From Variovorax sp. PBL-H6 (GTDB lineage: Bacteria; Pseudomonadota; Gammaproteobacteria; Burkholderiales; Burkholderiaceae_C): 64,000 nt of DNA. The DNA lies in contig NZ_LR594659.1 of the NCBI RefSeq assembly GCF_901827155.1, forward strand, positions 1,488,001 to 1,552,000, in the 5' to 3' direction. The notes beneath the pieces were generated by a model. That model saw only the letters and a list, made by a program, of their open reading frames with translations, had not been told where the DNA came from and did no database searches. This document shows, one piece after another, positions 5,526 to 22,136 of this stretch. Both the position numbers and the translations under genes were made by a program. How positions within the stretch are numbered: position 1 is the stretch's first letter; every line of letters starts with the position of its first letter.

Positions 5526-6047
5526 CTAGCGCTGAGCCCTGCGCTGCCGAACGGCGCCGAGAATCCCGCGCAGGATGTCGATCGGCGGCGGGGGGCAGCC
5601 GGGTACTGCCACATCGACCGGAATCACATTCGCCACCTTCCCGCAGCTGGCGTAGCTCTCACCGAAGATGCCGCCGGTGCAGCCGCAATCGCCGACCGCG
5701 ACCACCAGCTTCGGCTCCGGCGTGGCATCGTAGGTGCGCCGCAATGCCTCTTCCATGTTCCGCGACACTGGGCCGGTCACCAGCAGCATGTCGGCGTGGC
5801 GAGGACTGGCGACGAATTTGATGCCGAGTCCCTCGATGTTGTAGTAGGGGTTGTTGAGTGCGTGGATTTCGAGTTCACAGCCGTTGCATGAGCCGGCATC
5901 GACCTGGCGGATCGTCAGCGCCTGGCCCAGGATGGCGAGGATGTCGCGCTGGATGCGATCGACAGCGGGGTGTTCGGCGTCATCGAGCCGCGGCACCGGC
6001 TCGGTGCCGATGCCGGTACGGACGATCTGCTTGAGGATGTGCCACAT
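5526..6047 (-). CDS. hyfI: Ehr/hydrogenase-4 small subunit (HyfI/NuoB-like)
   Basis: This 173-residue Fe-S subunit of the NuoB/group 4 hydrogenase small-subunit family is the last gene of the six-subunit operon. The proximal [4Fe-4S] ligands are present: Cys 54 and 57 (AGSCNGCELE), Cys 121 (GDCGCTGG) and Cys 151 (VPGCPPPP); Cys 123 and 135 are extra. It would sit in the peripheral arm, passing electrons between the large-subunit-like protein and the membrane arm. Its start shares one base with the stop of the large-subunit gene (TGATG), indicating translational coupling. Confidence 0.9.
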   Translation of the reverse strand: MWHILKQIVRTGIGTEPVPRLDDAEHPAVDRIQRDILAILGQALTIRQVDAGSCNGCELEIHALNNPYYNIEGLGIKFVASPRHADMLLVTGPVSRNMEEALRRTYDATPEPKLVVAVGDCGCTGGIFGESYASCGKVANVIPVDVAVPGCPPPPIDILRGILGAVRQRRAQR

Positions 6048-7597
6048 CAGAGGTCGTGACCCGAATAGCTCAGGTTGAAGGACTTGTTGATCAGCGGGAA
6101 GTCCGGAACGATGTTGCCGATGATGGCGTGCTCGAGCACCGGCCAGTTCTGCCAGGATGGATCATGGCAATGGCATCGCACGATGCGGCCATCTCCGTCG
6201 ATCTCCAGTGCGACGAGAACCTCGCCCCGCCAGCCTTCGACCCAGCCTGCACCCAGCGATGCCGAGGCCTGCGGCCGGAGCGCGGCGTGAGCGGCGCCGT
6301 CCGGCAAGCCCTGGCAGATGGCGCGGATGAGCCGCAATGACTCGAATGCTTCATCGAAGCGCACCGCCACGCGTGCTGCAACATCGCCATCGCTCTGTGC
6401 CGCGATCGCGGCCTTCAGCTGACCGTAGGGCGGCCAAGGGAAGTCGCGGCGCAGATCGGCCGTCTGCCCGCTGGCACGCCCCGCGAGGCCCGTCAGGCCG
6501 AGCTGTGCGGCCAGCTGAGGCGTTACCCTTCCGGTGCCGGCAAAGCGGTCCTGCAGGCCCGCATGTTCGTCGTAGATGCGACGCAGCACGCGCACCTCTC
6601 GCTCGATCGCGTCGCACTGCGTGCTCAGGCGGGCCCGCATCGTGGGTGTCAGATCGATCGCCACGCCGCCGGGCACGATGGCATCCATCATCAGGCGATG
6701 GCCAAAAATCTCCTTCGACAGGCGCAACCAGTCCTCGCGCAGTCGCGAGAACTGCGCCAGGCCGAAGGCCAGGGCTGCATCGTTGCCCAAAGCGCCGAGA
6801 TCGCCCAGATGATTGGCCACGCGTTCGCGCTCCAGCATCAGCGCACGCAGCCAGGCGGCGCGCTCCGGGATCTCGCCGCCCCAGGCCGACTCGAGTGCCA
6901 TGCTGTAGGCCCAGGCGTAAGCGACCGTCGTGTCGCCCGAGACGCGGCCCGCGAGACGATGGCCCTCGAGCGGCATCAGTTCCGTGAACCGGCGCTCGAT
7001 GCCCTTGTGCGTGTAACCCAGGTGCTGTTCCAGCCTGAGAACTTTCTCGCCGACGACAGAGAAGCGAAAGTGGCCGGGCTCGATGATGCCGGCGTGCACG
7101 GGCCCCACGGCGATCTCGTGGACCCCGTCGCCGTCAACGCGCACGAAGGGGTAGTCGGCGGGAAGTCTGCCAGCGGCAGCTGCTTCGGACCGGTGTTTGC
7201 GCTGCAGCGGCAATGACCCGGGCGCCCACACACCGTGGTCGAGCCAGGCGCGATCGTCGCTGCTGCCCGCGGCACGGATGCCTGACAGATCGGCCATGGC
7301 GCGCTGCATGCGTCCCGCGCAGGGAAATGCGGCTGCCAGATCGGGAAACCCTTGCGCTGCATCGTCCAGCTTCAGTTCGACCCAGATCAGGCCCTCGGAA
7401 ACGGCATAGGCTGCACACGCTGCCATTCCGTCGCCGGATGCGCTGCGGTCGACGCCCCAGACCGAAACCAGCCTTCCGCCCGCGTCCGCGATGCCGCGCG
7501 CCACGGCGCTCCAGGCGTCGCGGCTCACTCGCCCATGCCAGGCGGGCAGCGGCGCCGGCAGGCGTCGCAGATCGGGTCCGAGTTCCGGCCGGGCCAT
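6047..7597 (-). CDS. hyfG: Ehr large-subunit-like protein (HyfG / NuoCD-like) lacking Ni-Fe ligands
   Basis: This 516-residue protein combines a NuoC-like N-terminal domain (about 20-125) with a NuoD/hydrogenase-large-subunit domain (about 165-516; EPGHFRFSVVGEKVLRLE, HLGYTHKGIERRF). A catalytic [NiFe] hydrogenase needs two CxxC motifs. Here the first site reads GRVSGDTTVAY (about 217-227) and the second reads DPSWQNW (479-485), so all four cysteines are missing. It cannot bind Ni-Fe and is not a hydrogenase. Known relatives are Ehr complexes and Rv0087 of Mycobacterium tuberculosis. The start was taken at MARPELGPDL, 5 bases after the HyfF stop. Confidence 0.9.
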   Translation of the reverse strand: MARPELGPDLRRLPAPLPAWHGRVSRDAWSAVARGIADAGGRLVSVWGVDRSASGDGMAACAAYAVSEGLIWVELKLDDAAQGFPDLAAAFPCAGRMQRAMADLSGIRAAGSSDDRAWLDHGVWAPGSLPLQRKHRSEAAAAGRLPADYPFVRVDGDGVHEIAVGPVHAGIIEPGHFRFSVVGEKVLRLEQHLGYTHKGIERRFTELMPLEGHRLAGRVSGDTTVAYAWAYSMALESAWGGEIPERAAWLRALMLERERVANHLGDLGALGNDAALAFGLAQFSRLREDWLRLSKEIFGHRLMMDAIVPGGVAIDLTPTMRARLSTQCDAIEREVRVLRRIYDEHAGLQDRFAGTGRVTPQLAAQLGLTGLAGRASGQTADLRRDFPWPPYGQLKAAIAAQSDGDVAARVAVRFDEAFESLRLIRAICQGLPDGAAHAALRPQASASLGAGWVEGWRGEVLVALEIDGDGRIVRCHCHDPSWQNWPVLEHAIIGNIVPDFPLINKSFNLSYSGHDL

Positions 7598-7602
7598 TTT
7601 GA

Positions 7603-9057
7603 TCACTTCCCCAGCATCGCGGCCGCCTGGACGTACCAGGCATTGAGGTAGGGCGGGATGTAGACGCCGAGCATCAGGCCAAGCGCCAGGTGCGTGAACA
7701 CCGGAATCAGGGCCGGCGGATGCGCCAAGGGCTTCACGTTGGTCTCGCCAAACACCATCGGCTGGACGCGGCTGAAGACGGACGCGAACGCCAAACCCAA
7801 TGCGATCAGCAGCAACGGGGTTGCCCAGGGTTGCTCGCGCATCGCCGTCGTGACGATCAGGAACTCGCTGGCGAAGACGCCGAACGGGGGCATGCCCAGG
7901 ATGGCAAGCGATCCGAGCATCAGACCCCAGGCAACCGTCGGGCTGACCTTGATGAGCCCGCGGATGTTCTCCATGAGCTGGGTGCCGGCCTTCTGCGTGG
8001 CGTGGCCGACGGCAAAGAAGATCGCGGACTTGACCAGCGAATGCACCGTCATGTGCAGCAGCCCGGCATAGTTGGCAATCGGCCCCCCCATGCCGAATGC
8101 GAAGGTCATCATTCCCATGTGCTCGATCGACGAGTAGGCGAACATGCGCTTTACGTCCTTCTGCCGAATCAGGAAGAACACTGCCGCGACGACGGACAGC
8201 AGGCCGAAACCCATCATCAGCCGTCCGGCGAGCGGGTAGTGCAGCGCGCCGTCGGTCAGGACCTTGCAGCGCAGGATCGCGTAGAGCGCGACGTTCAGCA
8301 GCAGGCCCGACAGCACGGCGGATACCGGCGTCGGCCCCTCGGCGTGCGCGTCGGGCAGCCAGTTGTGGACCGGCACCAGGCCGACCTTGGTGCCGTAGCC
8401 GATGAACAGGAACGCAAAGGCCAGCGTGATGATGTTCGGGTCGAGCTGATCCTTCATCGCGTCGAGGTTGGTCCAGAGCAAGGCGCCGCCCTCCGGGCCG
8501 ATCACCTTCTCGGCGGCCATGTACAGCAGCACTGTCCCGAACAACGCCTGGGCGATGCCCACGCCGCACAGGATGAAGTATTTCCATGCGGCCTCCAGGC
8601 TGGCCGCAGTGCGATAGACACTGACCAGCAGCACGGTGGTCAAGGTGGCAGCCTCCATCGCGACCCAGACGATCCCCATGTTGTTGGTCGTCAATGCCAG
8701 CAGCATCGTGAAGCTGAACAGCTGGTACATGCTGTGGTACAGGCGCAGGCGCGGCGGCGTCATCTTGCCGTGGTCGCGCTCGACGCGCATGTAGGGGCGC
8801 GAGAAGATGGACGTGGTCAGGCCGACGAACGCGGTCAGCGTGACGAGAAAGACATTCAGCGGGTCGATGTAGAACTCTCGGTCCCAGGCCAGCATCGGCC
8901 CGCTTTCGACGATCTGCGCCGTGAGCACGCAGGCGGCGACGAACGTGCCCAGGCTGAACGCGACGTTGACGTCTCGTGCGTTGTCGCGCTGGCCGACCAG
9001 CGCCAGCACCAGCCCGCCGGCCAGCGGCGTTGCGAGAAGGAAAGCCAATGCAAGCAA
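7603..9057 (-). CDS. hyfF: Ehr membrane subunit, antiporter-like (HyfF / NuoN-NuoL-like)
   Basis: This 484-residue polytopic membrane protein of the Mrp-antiporter/complex I proton-channel family has about 14 hydrophobic segments. Hallmarks are the TM5 glutamate in VWVAMEAATLTT, the TM7 lysine in GYGTKVGLVPVHNWLPDAH and the EGPTPVSAVLSGLLLNVALY stretch. It is expected to translocate H+ or Na+ in the membrane arm. It begins 1 base after the HyfE stop, inside a tightly packed operon. Confidence 0.93.
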   Translation of the reverse strand: MLALAFLLATPLAGGLVLALVGQRDNARDVNVAFSLGTFVAACVLTAQIVESGPMLAWDREFYIDPLNVFLVTLTAFVGLTTSIFSRPYMRVERDHGKMTPPRLRLYHSMYQLFSFTMLLALTTNNMGIVWVAMEAATLTTVLLVSVYRTAASLEAAWKYFILCGVGIAQALFGTVLLYMAAEKVIGPEGGALLWTNLDAMKDQLDPNIITLAFAFLFIGYGTKVGLVPVHNWLPDAHAEGPTPVSAVLSGLLLNVALYAILRCKVLTDGALHYPLAGRLMMGFGLLSVVAAVFFLIRQKDVKRMFAYSSIEHMGMMTFAFGMGGPIANYAGLLHMTVHSLVKSAIFFAVGHATQKAGTQLMENIRGLIKVSPTVAWGLMLGSLAILGMPPFGVFASEFLIVTTAMREQPWATPLLLIALGLAFASVFSRVQPMVFGETNVKPLAHPPALIPVFTHLALGLMLGVYIPPYLNAWYVQAAAMLGK

Positions 9058-9058
9058 C

Positions 9059-9721
9059 TCAGTCTTCCTTCAGTTTCTCGAGATGGCGGATGTCCAGGCT
9101 GTCGAACTGCTCGCGAATCTGGAACATGAAGACGCCCAGGATCAGCACACCGATCAGAACGTCCAGCGCGATACCGAACTCGACCACCATCGGCATGCCG
9201 TAGGTGGCCGACGTGGCGGCAAAGAACAGGCCGTTCTCCATCGCGAGGAAGCCGATCACCTGCGGAACCGCCTTCGCGCGCGCGATCATCATCAGGAACG
9301 ACAGCAGCACGCAGGCCAGCGCAATGCCCAGCGTGCCGCTGGCCAGCGCCGACGACAGCTGGGAAATGGGTATCGCCAGATTGAACGCGAAGATCACGAC
9401 CCCGATGCCGATCAGCATCGTGGTCGGGATGTTGATCAGCGTTTCGACGTCCCAGCGGATGTCGAGACGATCGATCACCCGGTGCAGCAGGTACGGGATC
9501 AACAGCACCTTGAGGACCACGGTCAGCCCGGCCGACAGGTACAGGTGGTGCTGGTCGGTCGCATAGCCGACCACGGCGGTCGCCAGCGCCAGTGTCGCAC
9601 CCTGCATCGTGAACAGATGGATCAGGGTGAGGATGCGCCGTTGCGAGATCATCGCGAACGCGATCATCAGCAGCACTGCGCCGAGCAGGTTGACGAGTTG
9701 GGTCAGGATGCTGCTGCTCAT
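9059..9721 (-). CDS. hyfE: Ehr membrane subunit HyfE (MrpC/NuoK-like)
   Basis: This 220-residue membrane protein matches hydrogenase-4 component E and is equivalent to mycobacterial HycP. It has about six to seven hydrophobic helices and a charged C-terminus (REQFDSLDIRHLEKLKED). The NuoK-like part carries FLAMENGLFFAATSATYG, with the conserved membrane Glu. It lies between HyfC-like and HyfF-like genes with one-base gaps on both sides. Confidence 0.93.
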   Translation of the reverse strand: MSSSILTQLVNLLGAVLLMIAFAMISQRRILTLIHLFTMQGATLALATAVVGYATDQHHLYLSAGLTVVLKVLLIPYLLHRVIDRLDIRWDVETLINIPTTMLIGIGVVIFAFNLAIPISQLSSALASGTLGIALACVLLSFLMMIARAKAVPQVIGFLAMENGLFFAATSATYGMPMVVEFGIALDVLIGVLILGVFMFQIREQFDSLDIRHLEKLKED

Positions 9722-9722
9722 G

Positions 9723-10670
9723 TCACCGATCGAGGAGCAGGTGAACCAGCATGCCGATCACCGCGAGCAGGAAGGCCGTGGCCAGGAACTCGGGCACGCG
9801 GAAGATGCGCATCTTGGCGCTTGCCGTCTCCAGCACCGCAAGAAGAAAGCCGCCCACGGCGAGCTTGGCAGCCAATACGGGCAGGGCCAGCAGCATCTCC
9901 AGCGGGGCCTGGGCCTGCGCAATGCCCCAAGGCAGGAACAGGGCCAGGCCGATGCATGAATAGGCGAAGAGCTTCAGGCTGGCGGCCCATTCGATCAGCG
10001 CCAAGTGGCGGCCCGAGTACTCGAGGATGAGCGCCTCGTGAATCATCGTCAGCTCGAGGTGCGTGGCCGGGTTGTCCACTGGTACGCGCGCGTTCTCGGC
10101 CAGCGACACCATCGTGAACGCGACCCCGGCGAAGGCCATGCCGGGATAGATGGCCAGTTCACGCTGCGTCAGCGTCTCGACAATGGTGGTGAGCGATGTC
10201 GACTTGGAAATCAGCGAAGCCGAGAACAGCACCATCAACAGCGCAGGCTCGGCAAGAAAGCCGATCAGCATCTCGCGCCGTGCCCCCATGGTGCCGAACG
10301 CAGTGCCGATGTCCATGGCGGCCAGCGATATGAACACCCGTGCCAGGGCGAACAGGCCGACCAGTGCGATCGCATCGGCCGCCGGCGCCAACGGCAGATC
10401 GGTCGACAGCGTGGGGATGATGGCGCAGGCCAGGACCATGCAGCCGAACATCACATAGGGCGTGACGCGAAACAGTCGCGATGCGTGGTCGGCAAGCATC
10501 GACTCCTTGTTGAACAGCTTGTGCAGCATCCGGTAGGGCTGCCAGAGGCTGGGCGCTGTCTTGTTCTGGAGCCACGCACGCCACAGGTTGACCCAGCCGG
10601 TCAGCAGGGGGGCCAACCCGATCGCGATGACGATCTCGAGCAACTGCGACAGGAAGGCGGCGAAGCTCAT
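9723..10670 (-). CDS. hyfC: Ehr membrane subunit, NuoH/HyfC/HycD-like
   Basis: This 315-residue membrane protein of the complex I subunit 1 (NuoH) / HycD family links the peripheral arm to the ion-pumping modules. The diagnostic cytoplasmic loop is present (ARVPVDNPATHLELTMIHEA, followed by ALILEYSGRHLALIEW), with its row of conserved Glu residues. Another loop, GWVNLWRAWLQNKTAPSLWQ, is also HycD-like. It starts 7 bases after the HyfB stop. Confidence 0.93.
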   Translation of the reverse strand: MSFAAFLSQLLEIVIAIGLAPLLTGWVNLWRAWLQNKTAPSLWQPYRMLHKLFNKESMLADHASRLFRVTPYVMFGCMVLACAIIPTLSTDLPLAPAADAIALVGLFALARVFISLAAMDIGTAFGTMGARREMLIGFLAEPALLMVLFSASLISKSTSLTTIVETLTQRELAIYPGMAFAGVAFTMVSLAENARVPVDNPATHLELTMIHEALILEYSGRHLALIEWAASLKLFAYSCIGLALFLPWGIAQAQAPLEMLLALPVLAAKLAVGGFLLAVLETASAKMRIFRVPEFLATAFLLAVIGMLVHLLLDR

Positions 10671-10677
10671 GGCGACC

Positions 10678-12702
10678 TCATCGCATCACCACGAGCAACG
10701 TGGCCACGAGCGTCAGGAAGCTGTACAGCAGGTACACCGAGATCCGCCCTTGCTGCATGACGCCGATCAGTTGCGCGAGGTACGCCGCCAGATCGGCGAC
10801 CGGTACGTAGAGCCAGCGCCAGAAGTGATCCTCCACAGTGACGCGATAGCGCGGCCTTGTATCGAAGGGCGTGGGCAGATCGCGTCGCATCAGGAAGAAG
10901 GGTTCGAAGATCTGGCGGATTGGCTGTCCGAACCCTTCGGCGGTGTCCTGCATGCGTGCCGTTCCCCACGGGAAGCCGCAGGCCCAGGGGAGGCCGCGAC
11001 GCACGCGACCGTGGTAAAGCTTCCGCACGAGCAGGAAGGCGAGCGCAAAACTTCCCAGGATGCCGAGCAAGAAGATCGCGGGCCCGTAGCTGGCCTGCGC
11101 GAGACCGTTCGGCGCCAACAGCCAGCCGTTGGCTGCCACCTGGGCGGCTAGACCCGATCCGACAAGCTGCTGCGTCACCGGATCGATCAATTGAATGAAC
11201 TGGGCCGGCAGCAGTCCCAGCGCGATGCAGCCAAGTGCCAGCCACACCATGCCGGTGCGCTCCCAGCGGCCCGCATCGTGGGCCTGGGCGAGCTTTTCCT
11301 CTCGCGGCTGTCCGAGGAAAATCACGCCGAAGAACTTGACCATGGTGTAGCCGGCCAGCGCGGCTACCAGGGCGATGAGCGCGGCCACGACCGGAATCAG
11401 CATGGTCAACAAGGGCACCGGCAGCCCCGCCGTGAAGAGGAAACTCTGCAGCAGCAGCCATTCGGACACGAAGCCCCCCAGCGGCGGCAGGCCCGCACTG
11501 GTCAAGACGCCCAGCAGCGTGAGCCAGGTCACCCAGGGCATCGTTCGGATCAGGCCTCCCAGCTTGCCGAGGCTTCGCTCGGAAGTGGCATGAAGCACAC
11601 AGCCAGTCCCGAGGAAGAGCAGGCTCTTGAAGAAGGCGTGGCCCGCGACGTGATAGAGGGCGGCCGTCAATGCGAGCGCTGCCATCGGCTTCATGTCGTA
11701 AGCCGAAAAAATCAAGGTCAAGCCCATGCCGACGAACAACAGGCCCATGTTCTCGATCGACGAATAGGCGAGCAGCCGTTTCATATCCGTCTGCACTGCC
11801 GCGAAGACCACGCCGAACAGGGCGGTCGCCAGGCCGGCCGCCAGCAGCAGGCCGCCCCACCACCACTGGTGCGCATGCAGCAGATCGAAAGACACGCGCA
11901 ACAGGCCGTAGACGGCGGTGTTCAGCATGACCCCGCTCATCATGGCCGAGACGGGGGACGGCGCCGCGGGGTGCGCCTCTGGCAGCCACACATGCAGTGG
12001 CAGGATGCCGGCCTTGGCGCCGAAGCCGAACAAGGCGAGCAAGAAACCGGCGGAGGCCCAGAATGGAGACAAGGCCTGGGCACGCATGTTGGCAAAGGTG
12101 TAGTCGCCCGTGTTGGCCTGCAGCACGCCAAAGCACAGCAGGACGGCGATTGCGCCGATTCTCGCCATCGTGATGTAGAGATAGCCCGCGCTGCGCACCT
12201 CGGCCATGCGGTGGTTCGCGGTTACCAGGAAGAACGAGGACAGCGCCATCGTCTCCCACATCACCATGAACGAATAGGCGTCGTCGGCAAGGATCACGCC
12301 CACCATGCTGACCAGAAAGACGTGGTACTCCAGGCACAGCAGGCCGGGTGGCGTGCCTTCGCCCTTGCGAAAATATCCGGCCGCAAACACGGAGATGCCG
12401 GCTGACGCGCCGCCGGTCACCATCAGGAAATAGGCCGACAGGCTGTCCAGGCGGAGATGGAAGGGCAGTGCCGGCAGTCCGATGGGCAACACGGCGACCT
12501 CGGGGCGACCGAGCAGTGCGTCCAGGGCCAACCCGAAGAGCGCCAACCCCGATAGTCCTCCGATGGGGAAGAGCACCTGGGACACCAGGCCGAATCGATG
12601 CAGGGCGAAGATCCCGATGGTCCCCACGATCAGCCAGCCCATCGTCACAACGAGGATCCAGTCGAGATGGATCCATTGCGCGACGGGAGGCAGGCCGCTC
12701 AT
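10678..12702 (-). CDS. hyfB: Ehr membrane subunit HyfB (NuoL-like antiporter module)
   Basis: This 674-residue polytopic protein of the hydrogenase-4 component B family has about 15-16 membrane segments. Antiporter hallmarks are MVMWETMALSSFFLVTANHR (TM5 Glu) and FGAKAGILPLHVWLPEAHP (TM7 Lys), followed by SPVSAMMSGVMLNTAVYGLL. The C-terminal region FPWGTARMQDTAEGFGQPIR is typical of HyfB rather than NuoL. It follows the 47-residue RHH-like gene by 3 bases and is the first structural gene of the operon. Confidence 0.93.
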   Translation of the reverse strand: MSGLPPVAQWIHLDWILVVTMGWLIVGTIGIFALHRFGLVSQVLFPIGGLSGLALFGLALDALLGRPEVAVLPIGLPALPFHLRLDSLSAYFLMVTGGASAGISVFAAGYFRKGEGTPPGLLCLEYHVFLVSMVGVILADDAYSFMVMWETMALSSFFLVTANHRMAEVRSAGYLYITMARIGAIAVLLCFGVLQANTGDYTFANMRAQALSPFWASAGFLLALFGFGAKAGILPLHVWLPEAHPAAPSPVSAMMSGVMLNTAVYGLLRVSFDLLHAHQWWWGGLLLAAGLATALFGVVFAAVQTDMKRLLAYSSIENMGLLFVGMGLTLIFSAYDMKPMAALALTAALYHVAGHAFFKSLLFLGTGCVLHATSERSLGKLGGLIRTMPWVTWLTLLGVLTSAGLPPLGGFVSEWLLLQSFLFTAGLPVPLLTMLIPVVAALIALVAALAGYTMVKFFGVIFLGQPREEKLAQAHDAGRWERTGMVWLALGCIALGLLPAQFIQLIDPVTQQLVGSGLAAQVAANGWLLAPNGLAQASYGPAIFLLGILGSFALAFLLVRKLYHGRVRRGLPWACGFPWGTARMQDTAEGFGQPIRQIFEPFFLMRRDLPTPFDTRPRYRVTVEDHFWRWLYVPVADLAAYLAQLIGVMQQGRISVYLLYSFLTLVATLLVVMR

Positions 12703-12705
12703 GAC

Positions 12706-12849
12706 TCAGGCACCGCCGTGCGCGACGTCTCGGGGCAGCTGTCGCGGCATCTGCGACGCCGGCCGATCCTGCAGCGCGCGAAGCCGCTCGAAGGCTTCCT
12801 TCCTATGAGGGGCGATGGGCAGAGTCTGGCGCGCAGTTTTGAGCTCCAT
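12706..12849 (-). CDS. 47-aa ribbon-helix-helix-like protein, diverged copy of the divergent RHH gene
   Basis: A minus-strand ATG at 12849 opens a 47-codon frame ending TGA at 12706, three bases before the hyfB ATG. Its first residues are MELKTARQTLPIAPHRKEAF. Aligned without gaps against the plus-strand RHH protein at 12968 it shares all of residues 1-7 and 24 of 47 positions overall (for example AFE at 19-21, QD at 27-28, SQ at 32-33, RD at 40-41). It stops before the RHH protein's tail. GAGGA lies 3 bases before the ATG. It is either a short functional regulator or leader, or a decaying duplicate. The similarity is direct; a function is inferred. Confidence 0.6.
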   Translation of the reverse strand: MELKTARQTLPIAPHRKEAFERLRALQDRPASQMPRQLPRDVAHGGA

Positions 12850-12967
12850 GGTTCCTCAGCATGGCAATGCAATAGGTACCCGCAGCACATAGTATATGAA
12901 TGCCATGCGATTCAAGAAGCTCTGGATTGACTTGTATGTACATACAATTAACATATTTGGAGCCATC
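12850..12967. promoter_or_regulatory. AT-rich divergent promoter region between the two RHH copies
   Basis: This 118-base gap is far richer in A+T than its surroundings. It lies between two head-to-head copies of an RHH-type gene, so it should contain divergent promoters. TATACT (12896 down to 12891) is a plausible -10 for the Ehr operon on the minus strand. TACAAT (12943-12948) or TAACAT (12949-12954), the latter 16 bases after TTGACT (12927-12932), could serve the plus strand. Confidence 0.5.
12932..12947. promoter_or_regulatory. perfect 16-bp palindrome, candidate RHH operator
   Basis: TTGTATGTACATACAA reads the same on both strands. It sits between candidate -35 and -10 elements and 21 bases before the RHH start, the usual position for an autorepressor operator. 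RHH dimers bind short symmetric sites of this kind. Confidence 0.6.
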
Positions 12968-13165
12968 ATGGAGCTCAAGACTGCTCGCCTTACAGTCCTG
13001 ATTGATCCGGCCAAGAAGCAGGCCTTCGAGGCGCTCTGCGCGCAACAGGACGTGACGCCTTCTCAAGTGGTGAGGCGCCTGATTCGCGACTATTTGACCC
13101 ATCATGGAGTGACATTCGTGCCTAGCGGTGTTCGGCCGGATGGCAAGAAGGCCCGCGAACGCTGA
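12968..13165 (+). CDS. CopG/Arc-type ribbon-helix-helix protein
   Basis: This 65-residue protein starts MELKTARLTVLIDPAKKQAF. The beta strand TARLTVLID is followed by two helices (PAKKQAFEALCAQQD and TPSQVVRRLIRDYLTHHG), the classic RHH DNA-binding arrangement, and a basic tail (GVRPDGKKARER). The ATG at 12968 was chosen because GGAG lies 5 bases upstream and the RHH fold begins at once; an in-frame ATG at 12896 would add an unlikely N-terminus. It probably autoregulates through the 16-bp palindrome and may control the divergent Ehr operon. No toxin partner follows. Confidence 0.8.
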   Translation: MELKTARLTVLIDPAKKQAFEALCAQQDVTPSQVVRRLIRDYLTHHGVTFVPSGVRPDGKKARER

Positions 13166-13307
13166 CCCGGCCGAATCAGACGAGAACAAGCTCGCGGCAG
13201 CTGCCAAGCAGTGCCTGCGCACCCATCGCACTTCGTGCGTCGAGCGGTCGGGGAGCGTCCAAATGGACCCTCAGGCCTCGCCGGGCACACCGGCCCCCGA
13301 CGCCATC

Positions 13308-13496
13308 GTCGATGATCGGCAACACATGGCCGCCGGGTTCGGTGAGCCCGGTCAGGCGCTTGCCGGCACGCACGAAGAGCTCGATGCCGAGTTCTTCCTC
13401 GAGTTCGCGGATCTGCCGGCTCACGCCTGGCTGGGAGGTGTGGAGCGTGTGGGCGACCTCGGTGAGAAGAAGACCGGCGCACACGCGGCGGAGCGC
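13308..13496 (-). pseudogene. remnant of a CysB-type LysR regulator (DNA-binding domain only)
   Basis: A minus-strand frame encodes LLTEVAHTLHTSQPGVSRQI followed by RELEEELGIELFVRAGKRLT and GLTEPGGHVLPI. This is an almost intact CysB/Cbl helix-turn-helix and linker. It has no proper N-terminal start, and after GGHVLPIIDDGVG the effector-binding domain is absent. About 60 of some 310 expected residues survive, so this is a fragment. It lies in the 384-base stretch between the RHH gene and the toxin-antitoxin pair, which otherwise shows nothing recognisable. Confidence 0.75.
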
Positions 13497-13516
13497 GGGG
13501 CCGCGATGTCGACCAT

Positions 13517-13543
13517 TTGAGCCATAATTTCTGCTCAATGGAG
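13517..13543 (+). promoter_or_regulatory. antitoxin promoter/operator with internal Shine-Dalgarno
   Basis: Inverted arms TTGAGC (13517-13522) and GCTCAA (13533-13538) flank CATAAT (13523-13528), a strong -10 match. GGAG at 13540-13543 lies 6 bases before the ATG at 13550 and fixes the antitoxin start. A symmetric site around the -10 box fits autorepression by the Xre antitoxin. Confidence 0.55.
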
Positions 13544-13549
13544 CAAAAC

Positions 13550-14116
13550 ATGACTTCGAAAAAATCGACCGGTGCAGCAAAACCAGGCCCGCAATCGCTG
13601 TTTCGCTACAGCGATACCGCCAAGCCCACCGTGGCGCGCGCCAAGGAGAGGCAAGCCTCGGCTTTTGCCGCGAGCAGCAACAGCGGCCGCAAGTATTTCG
13701 AGGCGATGTTTCGCTACGCTCCGCTGGAGCGCGTCGAGCTCGTCAAGGCCGGCGTGCCGGCGCAGATGGCTGTGACCGTGGCCAAGGCCATGGGCGTCAG
13801 CAAGGACAGCCTCTACCAGACGCTGGGCCTGCCCCGGGCCACGATCGATCGGAAGCTCAAGGACGGAAAGGCCCTGTCCAGGGACGAGTCCTCGCGCGTC
13901 CTCGGCATTGCCCGCCTGGTGGGCCAGGCCCAGGCCATCATCGACGAGTCGGGTGAGCCGGCCGGCTTCAATGCGGCCCAATGGGTCGGCCAGTGGCTGG
14001 CCCAGCCCGTGGGCGCGCTCGGGGGGCGTACGCCGGGCGAGCTCATGGACACTGCCGAGGGCCAGGCCATCGTGTCCAACCTGCTGGACCGCGCCGTTTC
14101 CGGTGCGTATTCGTGA
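13550..14116 (+). CDS. Xre/MbcA/ParS-type antitoxin (DUF2384) of a RES-Xre module
   Basis: This 188-residue protein has a helical Xre-like N-terminal and central region (AVTVAKAMGVSKDSLYQTLG, then PRATIDRKLKDGKALSRDES). The C-terminal toxin-binding DUF2384 segment is near 150-188 (GRTPGELMDTAEGQAIVSNL). Family members neutralise RES toxins and repress their own promoter. The start follows a GGAG; an ATG four codons upstream lacks a ribosome site. It overlaps the toxin start by four bases (GTGA). Confidence 0.9.
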   Translation: MTSKKSTGAAKPGPQSLFRYSDTAKPTVARAKERQASAFAASSNSGRKYFEAMFRYAPLERVELVKAGVPAQMAVTVAKAMGVSKDSLYQTLGLPRATIDRKLKDGKALSRDESSRVLGIARLVGQAQAIIDESGEPAGFNAAQWVGQWLAQPVGALGGRTPGELMDTAEGQAIVSNLLDRAVSGAYS

Positions 14117-14601
14117 CATCCGTCTGGCGCATTGCGGCCGATACCCGGGAGTACACCGCCGACGACATGAGCGGCAAGGGCGCCGAGAAGACCGGCGGCC
14201 GCTGGAATCGGGCCGGCAGCCCGGTGCTCTACGCGGCCAGCTCCGTGGCGCTGGCCTGCCTCGAAACCGTGGTGCATCTGAACCTGTCCGGCTTCCCCCT
14301 GAACCGCTTCCTGGTCAGGATCGACGTGCCCGACGAAGTCTGGGTCGGGCGCCAGGCGCTGTCGCCCGGCACCTTGCCCGTCGGCTGGAGCGCCATCCCC
14401 GAGGGCAGGGTCTCCGTCGAGGCGGGCGACACGTGGCTGTCCGGCGCGGCGTCGGCACTGCTCCTTGTCCCGTCGGTCATCGTTCCCGAGGAATCCAACA
14501 TCCTTGTGAATCCAAGGCACCCGGACGCCGGCAAGCTCACGGCGACCAAGCTCCGGCCCTGGCTCTTCGACCAGCGCCTGGGTGCCCGCGCTGCCCTGTA
14601 G
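14113..14601 (+). CDS. RES-domain toxin
   Basis: This 162-residue toxin starts with GTG inside the antitoxin stop. The RES residues are visible: Arg 30 in GGRWNRAG, Tyr 40, Glu 51 in LACLETVVHL and Ser 121 in LVPSVIVPEE. Known RES toxins degrade NAD+ (MbcT, phosphorolysis) or ADP-ribosylate PRPP synthetase (ParT), which stops growth. The length is normal for the family. The antitoxin-then-toxin order with a 4-base overlap is typical and keeps antitoxin in excess. Confidence 0.9.
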   Translation: MTSVWRIAADTREYTADDMSGKGAEKTGGRWNRAGSPVLYAASSVALACLETVVHLNLSGFPLNRFLVRIDVPDEVWVGRQALSPGTLPVGWSAIPEGRVSVEAGDTWLSGAASALLLVPSVIVPEESNILVNPRHPDAGKLTATKLRPWLFDQRLGARAAL

Positions 14602-17406: not shown

Positions 17407-19211
<1,805 letters not shown>

Positions 19212-19215
<4 letters not shown>

Positions 19216-22136
19216 ACGCGCCCGCCAAGCTGAACGAACTGATGCCCCAGACGGTCGAGTTCACGCTCGACGGGCGGGCCGTCCAGGCCTTCGAGGGCGA
19301 GAGCATCCTCCAGGCTGCCGAGCGGCATGGGGTCGAGATCCCGCGGCTTTGCTACAAGGAAGGGATGCGGCCGGATGGAAATTGCCGCTCCTGCGTGGTG
19401 GAGTTGAAGGGCGAGCGCGTGCTGGCGCCGAGCTGCTGCCGCCATGTGACCGCCGGCATGGAGGTCCAGGCGACGAGCGAGCGGGCCTTGAAGAGCCAGC
19501 GAATGGTGGTCGAGATGCTGCTGTCCGACATGCCCGATGCGGGCTACAAGTGGATCGATGCGGGCGTGGCGGAGGCCCGCAGCCCTCTCCCGCTTGCGGG
19601 AGAGGGCGGGGGTGAGGGCCAATCGGTCGGCCAGCACGGCGAGCTCAGCGACTGGGCGCAGCGCCTCGGCGTCCAGGTCCGCCCGGCCCTCAAGGCCCTG
19701 CGGCGGGAACAGCCCGCCGCCGACAACTCCCACCCCGCCATGGCCGTCAATCTCGACGCCTGCATCCAGTGCAACCGCTGCGTGCGCGCCTGCCGGGAGG
19801 AGCAGGTCAACGACGTCATCGGCTACGCGCTGCGAGGGGCCAACTCGAAGATCGTCTTCGACTTCGACGACCCGATGGGCGACAGCACCTGCGTGGCCTG
19901 CGGCGAATGCGTGCAGGCCTGCCCCACGGGCGCCCTCATGCCCAAGAGCCATATCGGCTCGCAGCAGGTCGATCGCCAGGTCGATTCGGTCTGCCCCTTC
20001 TGCGGCGTGGGTTGCCTGATCACCTACAACATCAAGGACGAGAAGATCGTCAGCGTCGACGGCCGCGATGGCCCGGCCAACCATGGCCGGCTCTGCGTCA
20101 AGGGCCGCTTCGGCTTCGACTACGCGCACCATCCGCAGCGCCTCACCCAGCCCCTGATCCGCAAGCCCGGCGTGCCCAAGGGCTTCGACGACGCCCCGCG
20201 CCCCGGGGACTGGCACGACGTCTTCCGCGAGGCCAGCTGGGAAGAGGCCCTCGAACTCGCGGCCGGCAAGCTCAAGGACCTGCGGGACACGCATGGCAAC
20301 AAGGCCCTGGCTGGCTTCGGCTCCGCCAAAGGCAGCAACGAGGAGGCCTACCTGTTCCAGAAGCTGGTGCGCACCGGCTTTCGCAGCAACAACGTCGACC
20401 ACTGCACGCGCCTGTGCCATGCCTCCAGCGTCGCGGCCCTGCTCGAAGGCGTGGGCTCGGGCGCGGTGAGCAACCAGGTCAACGACGTGGAGCATGCGGA
20501 CCTGATCTTCGTCATCGGCTCCAACCCGACCGCCAATCACCCGGTGGCCGCGACCTGGATGAAGAACGCAGCCAAGCGCGGCGCGAAGATCGTGCTGGCC
20601 GACCCGCGCGTCACCGACATCGGCAGGCATGCGTGGCGCACCCTGCAGTTCAAGGCCGACACCGACGTGGCCATGCTCAATGCGCTGATCCACGCCGTCA
20701 TCGACGAGGGCCTGGTCGACGAGGCCTTCGTGCGCGATCGCGCCAGCAACTTCGAGGCGCTGCGCGAGAACGTGAAGGGCTACAGCCCCGAGGCCATGGC
20801 GCCGATCTGCGGCATTCCGGCCGAGACGCTGCGCGAGGTCGCGCGCGCCTTCGCCACAGCCAAGGGCGCGATGGTGCTGTGGGGCATGGGCATCAGCCAG
20901 CACGTGCACGGCACCGACAACGCGCGCTGCCTGATTGCGCTGGTCACCGTCACCGGCCAGATCGGCAAGCCCGGCTCGGGCCTGCACCCGCTGCGCGGCC
21001 AGAACAACGTGCAGGGCGCGAGCGATGCCGGGCTGATTCCGATGATGTTCCCCAACTACCAGCGCGTCGACGAGCCCGGTGCGCATGCATGGTTCGAGAA
21101 CTTCTGGGGCATGCCGCTCGACGAGAAGCCCGGCTACACGGTCGTCGAGATCATGCACAAGGCACTGGCGCCCGATAGCGACCCGCACAAGATCCGCGGC
21201 ATGTACATCATGGGCGAGAACCCCGCGATGAGCGACCCGGACCTCAACCACGCCCGCCATGCGCTCGCGAGCCTGGAGCACCTGGTGGTGCAGGACATCT
21301 TCATGACAGAGACCGCGTGGCTGGCCGACGTGGTGCTGCCCGCGAGCGCGTGGCCCGAGAAGACCGGCACGGTGAGCAATACCGACCGCATGGTGCAGTT
21401 GGGCAAGCGGGCGCTGAATCCGCCGGGCGATGCGAAGCCCGACCTCTGGATCATCCAGCAGATCGCGCAACGCATGGGCCTGTCGTGGAACTACGAGGGC
21501 GAAGAATCCGGCGTGGCCGCCGTCTACGAGGAAATGCGCCAGGCCATGCACGCTGCCATCAGCGGCATCAGCTGGGAGCGTCTGCAGCGCGAGTCCAGCG
21601 TGACCTACCCCTGCCTGAGCGCCGACGACCCGGGCCAGCCGACCGTCTTCATCGACACCTTCCCGACCGCGGACGGCCGCGTGAAGCTGGTCCCGGCCGA
21701 CATCATCCCGGCCGACGAGCGGCCCGACGTGCAATACCCGTTCGTGCTGATCACGGGCCGCCAGCTGGAGCACTGGCACACCGGCAGCATGACGCGTCGC
21801 GCGACAGTGCTCGACGCGCTGGAACCCATGGCCACGGCCTCGATGAACCAGGGCGACCTCGACGCACTGGGCCTGCAGGCCGGCGACGTGATCACCATTC
21901 GCTCGCGCCGCGGCGAGGTCGCGATTCACGTGCGGCGCGACGACGGCACGCCGAAGGGGACGGTCTTCGTGCCTTTCGCGTACTACGAGGCCGCAGCCAA
22001 CCTGATGACCAACGCGGCCCTCGATCCGCTGGGCAAGATCCCCGAGTTCAAGTACTGCGCCGTGCAAGTGCTGCCCGGCGGAATGCCGATGGCCGCGGCG
22101 GGATACGGGACAGGAGCGGTAAGCGCGCCTCGCTGA
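19212..22136 (+). CDS. fdsA: NAD+-dependent formate dehydrogenase alpha subunit (molybdopterin)
   Basis: This 974-residue catalytic subunit oxidises formate to CO2. Residues 1-110 form a NuoG-like ferredoxin with a [2Fe-2S] site (Cys 47, 58, 61, 75). Two [4Fe-4S] sites follow (Cys 184/187/190/194 and 227/230/233/237). The bis-MGD domain opens with CPFCGVGC (Cys 261, 264, 268, 295), and Cys 402 in DHCTRLCHAS is the Mo ligand in the place of selenocysteine. Residues 124-138 are encoded by a REP-like palindrome inserted in frame. The usual fdsC and fdsD do not follow; FdhD at 35708 is the only visible sulfurtransferase. Confidence 0.95.
19582..19619. repeat. REP-like palindromic element inside fdsA
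   Basis: Exact arms CCCTCTCCCGC (19583-19593) and GCGGGAGAGGG (19596-19606) around a TT loop are followed by CGGGGGTGAGGGC. On the minus strand this has the same layout as the elements at 44005 and 26609. It is translated as SPLPLAGEGGGEGQ within the linker between the [2Fe-2S] and [4Fe-4S] domains. Confidence 0.8.

Follow-up and report, generated by a model that had tools for sequence, protein, structure and literature searches.

Here we describe a six-gene operon, hyfB-C-E-F-G-I, on the minus strand at positions 5526-12702 of a 64,000-nucleotide stretch of Variovorax sp. PBL-H6 DNA (the window; coordinates count from its first letter). Its sequence assigns the encoded complex to the Ehr type and not to the hydrogenases. 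The large subunit, HyfG, is without CxxC motifs, is encoded together with NuoB-, NuoCD-, NuoH- and antiporter-like subunits, and takes a place in the tree outside complex I. What would mark a group 4 [NiFe] hydrogenase is missing, namely the four cysteines, HypD and HyfA/HyfH, as are the quinone-site His and Tyr of NuoD and the CC motif of NuoB that would mark complex I. A first-pass annotation of the window had proposed an Ehr-type complex without a Ni-Fe site, and the alignment of HyfG with HycE of E. coli formate hydrogenlyase, where all four ligand cysteines are replaced, bears this out.

The operon itself, as first called, is confirmed by open reading frames and by Pfam and NCBIfam assignments, and its six adjacent genes are intact. 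All lie on the minus strand. The hyfB-like gene (10678..12702) encodes an antiporter-like membrane subunit of 674 aa that scores 911 bits against NF005086 (cut-off 667) and aligns with HycC and MbhH. It is followed by a hyfC-like (NuoH) gene (9723..10670, 315 aa), matched by PF00146 (NADHdh) and aligned with HycD, and by a hyfE-like gene for a membrane subunit (9059..9721, 220 aa). The latter has no match in a Pfam search and meets the hydrogenase-4 subunit model NF008556 only under its cut-off (86.7 bits against 136), and it holds the same operon place in relatives. The hyfF-like gene (7603..9057, 484 aa), again antiporter-like, reaches 910.6 bits against NF005045 (cut-off 543). The hyfG-like large subunit (6047..7597, 516 aa) is a NuoC+NuoD-like fusion with PF00329 (Complex1_30kDa) and PF00346 (Complex1_49kDa) domains, and the hyfI-like small subunit (5526..6047, 173 aa) is NuoB-like, with a PF01058 (Oxidored_q6) match and alignments to HycG and MbhJ.

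Among proteins of solved structure, HycE (7z0s, E=3.7e-53) is the best relative of HyfG; MBH chains (6cfw) and other chains of the superfamily were also among the sequence matches of the operon proteins. Residue roles in HycE follow PMC9474812, which, like the other papers here, is cited from excerpts, with C241, C244 and C534 numbered by offset. In an alignment of 29 sequences, the four [NiFe] ligands are all replaced in HyfG, C241 by S220, C244 by T223, C531 by S510 and C534 by G513. The N-terminal CxxC (C241, C244) has given way to S220-G221-D222-T223 (6929..6940, minus strand), and D529 with the C-terminal CxxC (C531, C534) to N508-L-S510-Y-S-G513, or NLSYSG (6059..6076, minus strand). Soon after this motif HyfG terminates at HDL, whereas HycE runs on beyond its CxxC. 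The first-pass annotation was right about the loss of the cysteines and about GRVSGD at the N-terminal CxxC position. Its choice of DPSWQNW (479-485) as the C-terminal counterpart does not hold, since that segment aligns with HycE RAATYANW and the true counterpart, NLSYSG (508-513), lies at the C terminus.

The loss is shared by the relatives of the window's branch, taken as the best 80 of 582 confirmed in the genome collection. A single Cys occupies an ex-ligand position in 3 of the 80 (at S220 twice, at S510 once), and two Cys occur in none. Metal-binding cysteines elsewhere in the large subunit would have spoken against the proposed complex. No Cys is invariant, or present at 90%, over 33 large subunits, yet C475, outside the ligand positions, is kept in 79/79 branch relatives and C477 in 57/79, so a metal may still be held at C475/C477. 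These residues belong to an RCHCH motif (C475-H478, window 6164-6175) that directly precedes DPSWQNW.

Around the vacated site, much of the hydrogenase pocket is still in place. The beta1-beta2 loop retains its acidic residue (HycE E193) as E173, and also retained are the canopy Arg (R478) as R457 and the relay H284/E437/R395 as H263/E416/R374. All five residues are invariant over the 33 aligned large subunits; among branch relatives E173, H263, R374 and E416 are found in 80/80 and R457 in 79/79. Equally constant (79/79) is D222, an Asp gained between the first two ex-ligand positions, which is also present in 23/23 Ehr sequences of the groups without fluoride riboswitches. The canopy Asp (HycE D529), described as strictly conserved across hydrogenases and complex I (PMC9474812), is Asn in HyfG (N508), with Asn in 78 and Ser in 1 of 79 branch relatives; a sister branch at the 33-37% level retains the Asp in 8/8. 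An AlphaFold2 model is poor exactly here, with predicted local distance difference test scores below 50 at HyfG 137-198, 496-504 and 508-516, and gives no usable pocket shape. A FastTree of the 29 sequences, its references just one NuoD and two hydrogenases, places the Ehr large subunits in one group (0.96) beside HycE/HyfG.

The small subunit shows a single cluster motif. The four cluster cysteines first noticed in the proximal Fe-S subunit are C54, C57, C121 and C151 of HyfI, ligands for one [4Fe-4S] cluster, and no other cluster motif is visible. Their spacing is C-x2-C, as in hydrogenases, as opposed to the CC of complex I. Within the window's branch, 0/85 relatives have a HyfI frame with a ferredoxin motif, and the 86th locus (L082), an Azospirillum of another branch, is without one too. 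Fusion of a ferredoxin domain to HyfI does occur in the 33-37% branch, in 8/8 whole genes; a ninth gene, truncated where L084 ends, is annotated as a 4Fe-4S binding protein. In the relatives associated with fluoride riboswitches, a ferredoxin motif is found by pattern in 5/8 distinct HyfI genes. Pfam confirmed the fused domains in L054 and L089. In Burkholderiales-type loci, Rhizobium and Rhodococcus, the six-gene set comes without a recurrent electron-input gene.

Other parts of a hydrogenase are likewise missing. As the first-pass annotation stated, neither HyfA nor HyfH is encoded in the operon, and HyfD is missing from it too. Nor did a search of the host genome with HycB and HycF reveal a clear separate HyfA or HyfH: at E 1e-5, HycF-like matches were confined to one within the nuo region and another in the polyferredoxin of the window, and HycB-like matches to the beta subunit of the window's formate dehydrogenase (FDH) and one unassigned 333-aa frame. 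HypD had no match at E 1e-30 in the 6.87-Mb host genome, other Hyp proteins not being searched for.

Among the membrane subunits, antiporter residues are present in HyfB (E150, K230, K359, E414) and in HyfF (E135, K224, K343, E398), and for these two the earlier claim of intact ion-channel residues stands. It needs correction for HyfC, which retains three Glu (E206, E212, E217) but in the HycD alignment has PATHLEL in place of AEAEQEL. Two Glu of that motif are gone, and the E-channel is therefore changed, not simply intact. Compared with an ortholog set on a plasmid of Variovorax sp. PBL-E5, all six genes are under purifying selection, with ratios of nonsynonymous to synonymous substitution (dN/dS) of 0.05-0.14. 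The four membrane subunits are better conserved than HyfG, in which the NuoD-like part (0.10) is held more tightly than the NuoC-like part (0.26).

More distant relatives lie under fluoride riboswitches. Among related loci, L089 has seven such riboswitches, L085 six and L095 one, and four other loci have none. A class-wide sample yielded 26 fluoride riboswitch matches in 22/321 genomes, 17 of them over the cut-off, with a HyfC-like gene in 7/26 of the short riboswitch loci. In longer stretches (L125-L131), the 7 large subunits, which come from 5 genomes, are all without Cys at the four ligand positions, which brings the count to 10/10 for the fluoride large subunits (L085, L089, L095, L125-L131). 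Genes of this kind have been named formate hydrogen lyase (PMC2864571, PMC11139923) and placed under formate oxidation (PMC11139923). By their predicted large subunits, the fluoride-riboswitch formate hydrogen lyase genes in our sample are Ehr-like, and cysteine-less large subunits under such control hint at a role in ion homeostasis. Among the matches listed in a limited literature search, we did not meet these cysteine-less forms in print. The window complex belongs to a different branch.

We propose, with modest confidence, that the six subunits assemble, within the complex I superfamily, into an Ehr complex that works as an ion pump linked to redox chemistry and supplied by a soluble partner. 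Such a complex probably moves ions by a reaction other than that of a hydrogenase, and coupling to H+ or Na+ is plausible. In this model, a soluble low-potential carrier, ferredoxin- or flavodoxin-like and encoded elsewhere, would dock directly on HyfI. Electrons would cross the HyfI cluster and reach a small, soluble substrate bound by HyfG near S220, D222, T223 and S510 of its pocket, where protons could be delivered via E173, R457, H263, E416 and R374. The resulting charge change might then pass through HyfC to HyfF and HyfB, which would transport H+ or Na+ across the membrane. Several observations weigh against this model. No substrate, donor or ion is established for the complex, and the electron route is hard to explain when there is a single cluster motif and an input domain is lacking. 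The canopy Asn and the two Glu missing from the HycD motif of HyfC are further difficulties, and the coupling could therefore be altered. The structural model, finally, is of low confidence just where the substrate would bind.

Might the complex instead be a machine for ion or pH homeostasis, an antiporter or pump that, like its riboswitch-controlled cousins, responds to ion or acid stress, with redox chemistry secondary or playing no part? The cysteine-less large subunits of those cousins and the better conservation of the four membrane subunits relative to HyfG favor such a role. However, no fluoride riboswitch was found in the window, the host genome or 7 branch relatives at the thresholds used, and retention of the proton wire and of the HyfI cluster ligands points to redox chemistry; we consider this role unlikely. 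A quinone reductase or oxidase resembling complex I would be of the same fold family, and HyfG is indeed matched by NuoD models. Yet the loop His position of NuoD is I172 in HyfG, with the hydrogenase-type E173 adjacent, the NuoD Tyr, a residue with a quinone role, is replaced by G221, HyfI has CxxC and not CC, and there is no electron-input arm, which together make this role highly improbable. A working [NiFe] hydrogenase is rejected, given the four replaced cysteines and the lack of a HypD match. That the operon is a decayed, functionless hydrogenase-4 would agree with the lack of HyfA, HyfD and HyfH from the operon and of HypD from the genome, but six intact genes under purifying selection, invariant pocket residues and wide conservation leave this hardly credible.

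Another alternative, raised for candidate phyla as FDH-Ehr (PMC6349859), is that a formate dehydrogenase docks on the complex and formate oxidation drives the pump. The window holds two FDH clusters, whose genes begin 4.7 kb from hyfB, and the docking enzyme here would be the NuoEF-like/FdhA formate dehydrogenase (17407-22136). We compared co-occurrence over 150 family genomes in six tests, with p-values uncorrected for kinship and test number. Genomes with a match of at least 529 bits were taken as Ehr-positive (14/150); those counted as negative include one with a 135-residue piece (G101) and two with only a 34-37% paralogue (G135 and G049). An NAD-type FDH alpha subunit (at least 35% identity) accompanies Ehr in 14/14 genomes and is found in 96/136 without it (p=0.022); for close FDH (at least 58%) the figures are 12/14 and 73/136 (p=0.024), and for FdhA3 10/14 and 63/136 (p=0.09). 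FDH is common in genomes without Ehr, and HypD, which cannot serve this complex, is enriched equally (7/14 against 26/136, p=0.015), which suggests a shared lifestyle. The FDH-Ehr association is weak, no stronger than that of HypD. Half of the Ehr-positive genomes (7/14), and the host, do without HypD, and the complex therefore does not need [NiFe] maturation. As for the neighborhood, of the Ehr-negative genomes that have both apbC and FdhA3, 36/62 carry the two on one contig no more than 30 kb apart, against 8/10 of the Ehr-positive ones, so the closeness of FDH genes needs no Ehr. Within the stretches covered, FDH genes stand beside apbC in just 3/80 relatives (L027, L035, L039), and L036 offers one FdsA-like match at 24%. 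A link to form I carbon monoxide dehydrogenase was also rejected (2/14 against 10/136, p=0.31). The special tie to formate or CO suggested at first is not upheld, and we regard formate-driven pumping by this complex as quite unlikely.

The redox-linked pump we favor is patchily distributed, with Ehr in the 14 of 150 family genomes counted above. The one congener among the 150 is without Ehr; it keeps the metG-yceH and apbC-LysR gene order, with other open reading frames between. Of the best 80 loci, 77 gave a HyfI call, 70 a HyfE call and 69 a HyfC call; many contigs end within the operon. Gene order in Rhizobium is the same as in the window. Recurrent neighbors, on either side, are a cluster with PF01564 spermidine-synthase-like members (18/80 loci, named by Pfam on two members) and a DUF1275 (YoaK) cluster (13/80, named on one member); neither cluster turned up when genes of the window were scanned. 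In nine loci (L005, L042, L052, L017, L028, L054, L056, L064 and L093) the operon of the window's branch has a further, more distantly related Ehr operon next to it, and in one group of these the HyfI of the distant operon has a fused ferredoxin domain. Two loci, L024 and L045, have antiporter-like genes beside the operon together with one encoding a 1064- or 1089-aa protein, an arrangement that we take to resemble an inorganic carbon system of the DabA/DabB type. The annotation of L084 and L087 includes universal stress proteins.

Upstream of hyfB, an intact gene and a degenerate gene copy for ribbon-helix-helix (RHH) proteins face each other. The intact gene, divergent from the operon (12968..13165, plus strand), encodes a 65-aa RHH_9 protein (PF19839, 82 bits). 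The degenerate copy of 47 aa, recognized by sequence match, lies directly upstream of hyfB (12709..12849, minus strand). Between the two copies, which together span window 12709-13165, is a perfect 16-bp palindrome, TTGTATGTACATACAA (12932..12947), a possible operator. These are the only RHH matches in the 6.87-Mb genome (E 0.001), and a homologue lies less than 1.5 kb upstream of hyfB in 28/75 loci, the window counted; the RHH protein is therefore a likely local regulator, as a candidate. The palindrome motif was not found in front of hyfB in any of the remaining 74 loci, and a conserved operator is rejected on that ground. An FNR box was likewise rejected: with at most 2 mismatches it occurs upstream of hyfB in 16/74 loci (21.6%, a few upstream stretches being mis-sized) against 20.8% of random segments, which is no enrichment. 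The low-oxygen-activated locus of Burkholderia cenocepacia was also considered, and the excerpts of its paper contain no hydrogenase or hyf term. Further out lie a short LysR-type helix-turn-helix fragment of 134 aa without a substrate domain (13176-13580), likely a gene remnant, and, between the hyf operon and apbC, a pair of an Xre/MbcA/ParS-type antitoxin and a RES-domain toxin (13631-14601).

Beyond this operon, Ehr complexes are widespread, and the excerpts of the Ehr papers cited here give no reaction for them. What is new here is the corrected site, a proton wire that is kept while the canopy Asp is lost and D222 gained, the single cluster motif, the failure of the argument from a formate neighborhood, and the fluoride link. 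An Ehr with one cluster motif and neither input domain nor metal, the proton wire still in place, is a natural test of which parts of the complex I machine are needed for pumping. It is tempting to speculate, though we hold the idea only tentatively, that the members of the Ehr family are machines for ion homeostasis in which the proton-coupled [NiFe] pocket survives but the metal does not. The six-gene branch would be the minimal form of the family, with one Fe-S cluster, no input domain and a small substrate at D222, and the fluoride formate hydrogen lyase would be the same family misread as formate metabolism. Through the fluoride link the Ehr family gains a phenotype amenable to selection; the link also suggests that the published formate-oxidation interpretation merits re-examination.

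Set against known systems, the window complex shares with E. coli formate hydrogenlyase and hydrogenase-4 the B, C, G and I subunits (F and E in hydrogenase-4), a HyfG that is 28% identical, and the proton-wire residues. It differs from them in having no [NiFe] cysteines, no HyfA, HyfH or HyfD in the operon and no HypD match in the genome, and in ending, but for HDL, at the former C-terminal CxxC. With the fluoride formate hydrogen lyase it has in common the core subunits and a large subunit without the four cysteines. That group differs in gene order (C-E-F-G-I-B, where the stretch is long enough), in having no Asp at the D222 position, and in the ferredoxin motif fused to many of its small subunits. 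Ehr complexes without [NiFe] ligands have been described before (PMC10432482, PMC10284858, PMC6349859, PMC12342949). Those of Nitrospira and ammonia-oxidizing archaea, whose function is given as unknown or open (PMC10432482, PMC10284858, PMC12342949), resemble the window complex by description, with a group-4-like large subunit that has no CxxC or [NiFe] sites. The early equation of the subunit set with Rv0082-Rv0087 of M. tuberculosis is supported at the level of actinobacteria. On the Rhodococcus plasmid pRZP3 the same six subunits occur in the order I-B-C-E-F-G, with a HyfG that is 43% identical and D222 and N508 in common. In M. tuberculosis, rv0082-rv0087, under Rv0081 regulation, are listed as two oxidoreductases, hycD, hycP, hycQ and hycE (PMC6901956), a likeness in six subunits by gene listing. 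Closest are the hyfBCEFGI genes of C. metallidurans CH34 (Rmet_4666-4671) and C. necator H16 (H16_A2196-A2201), reported in 2010 as an incomplete hyf operon for which a role in lithotrophic growth was judged very unlikely (PMC2864759); the excerpts of that hyf account do not discuss the metal site. Their six genes stand in an order identical to that of the window, the CH34 proteins are 71-86% identical, and we see no clear difference. With the 2010 account and the published Ehr descriptions, this type of complex is already known, and the window operon is a well-kept representative of it.

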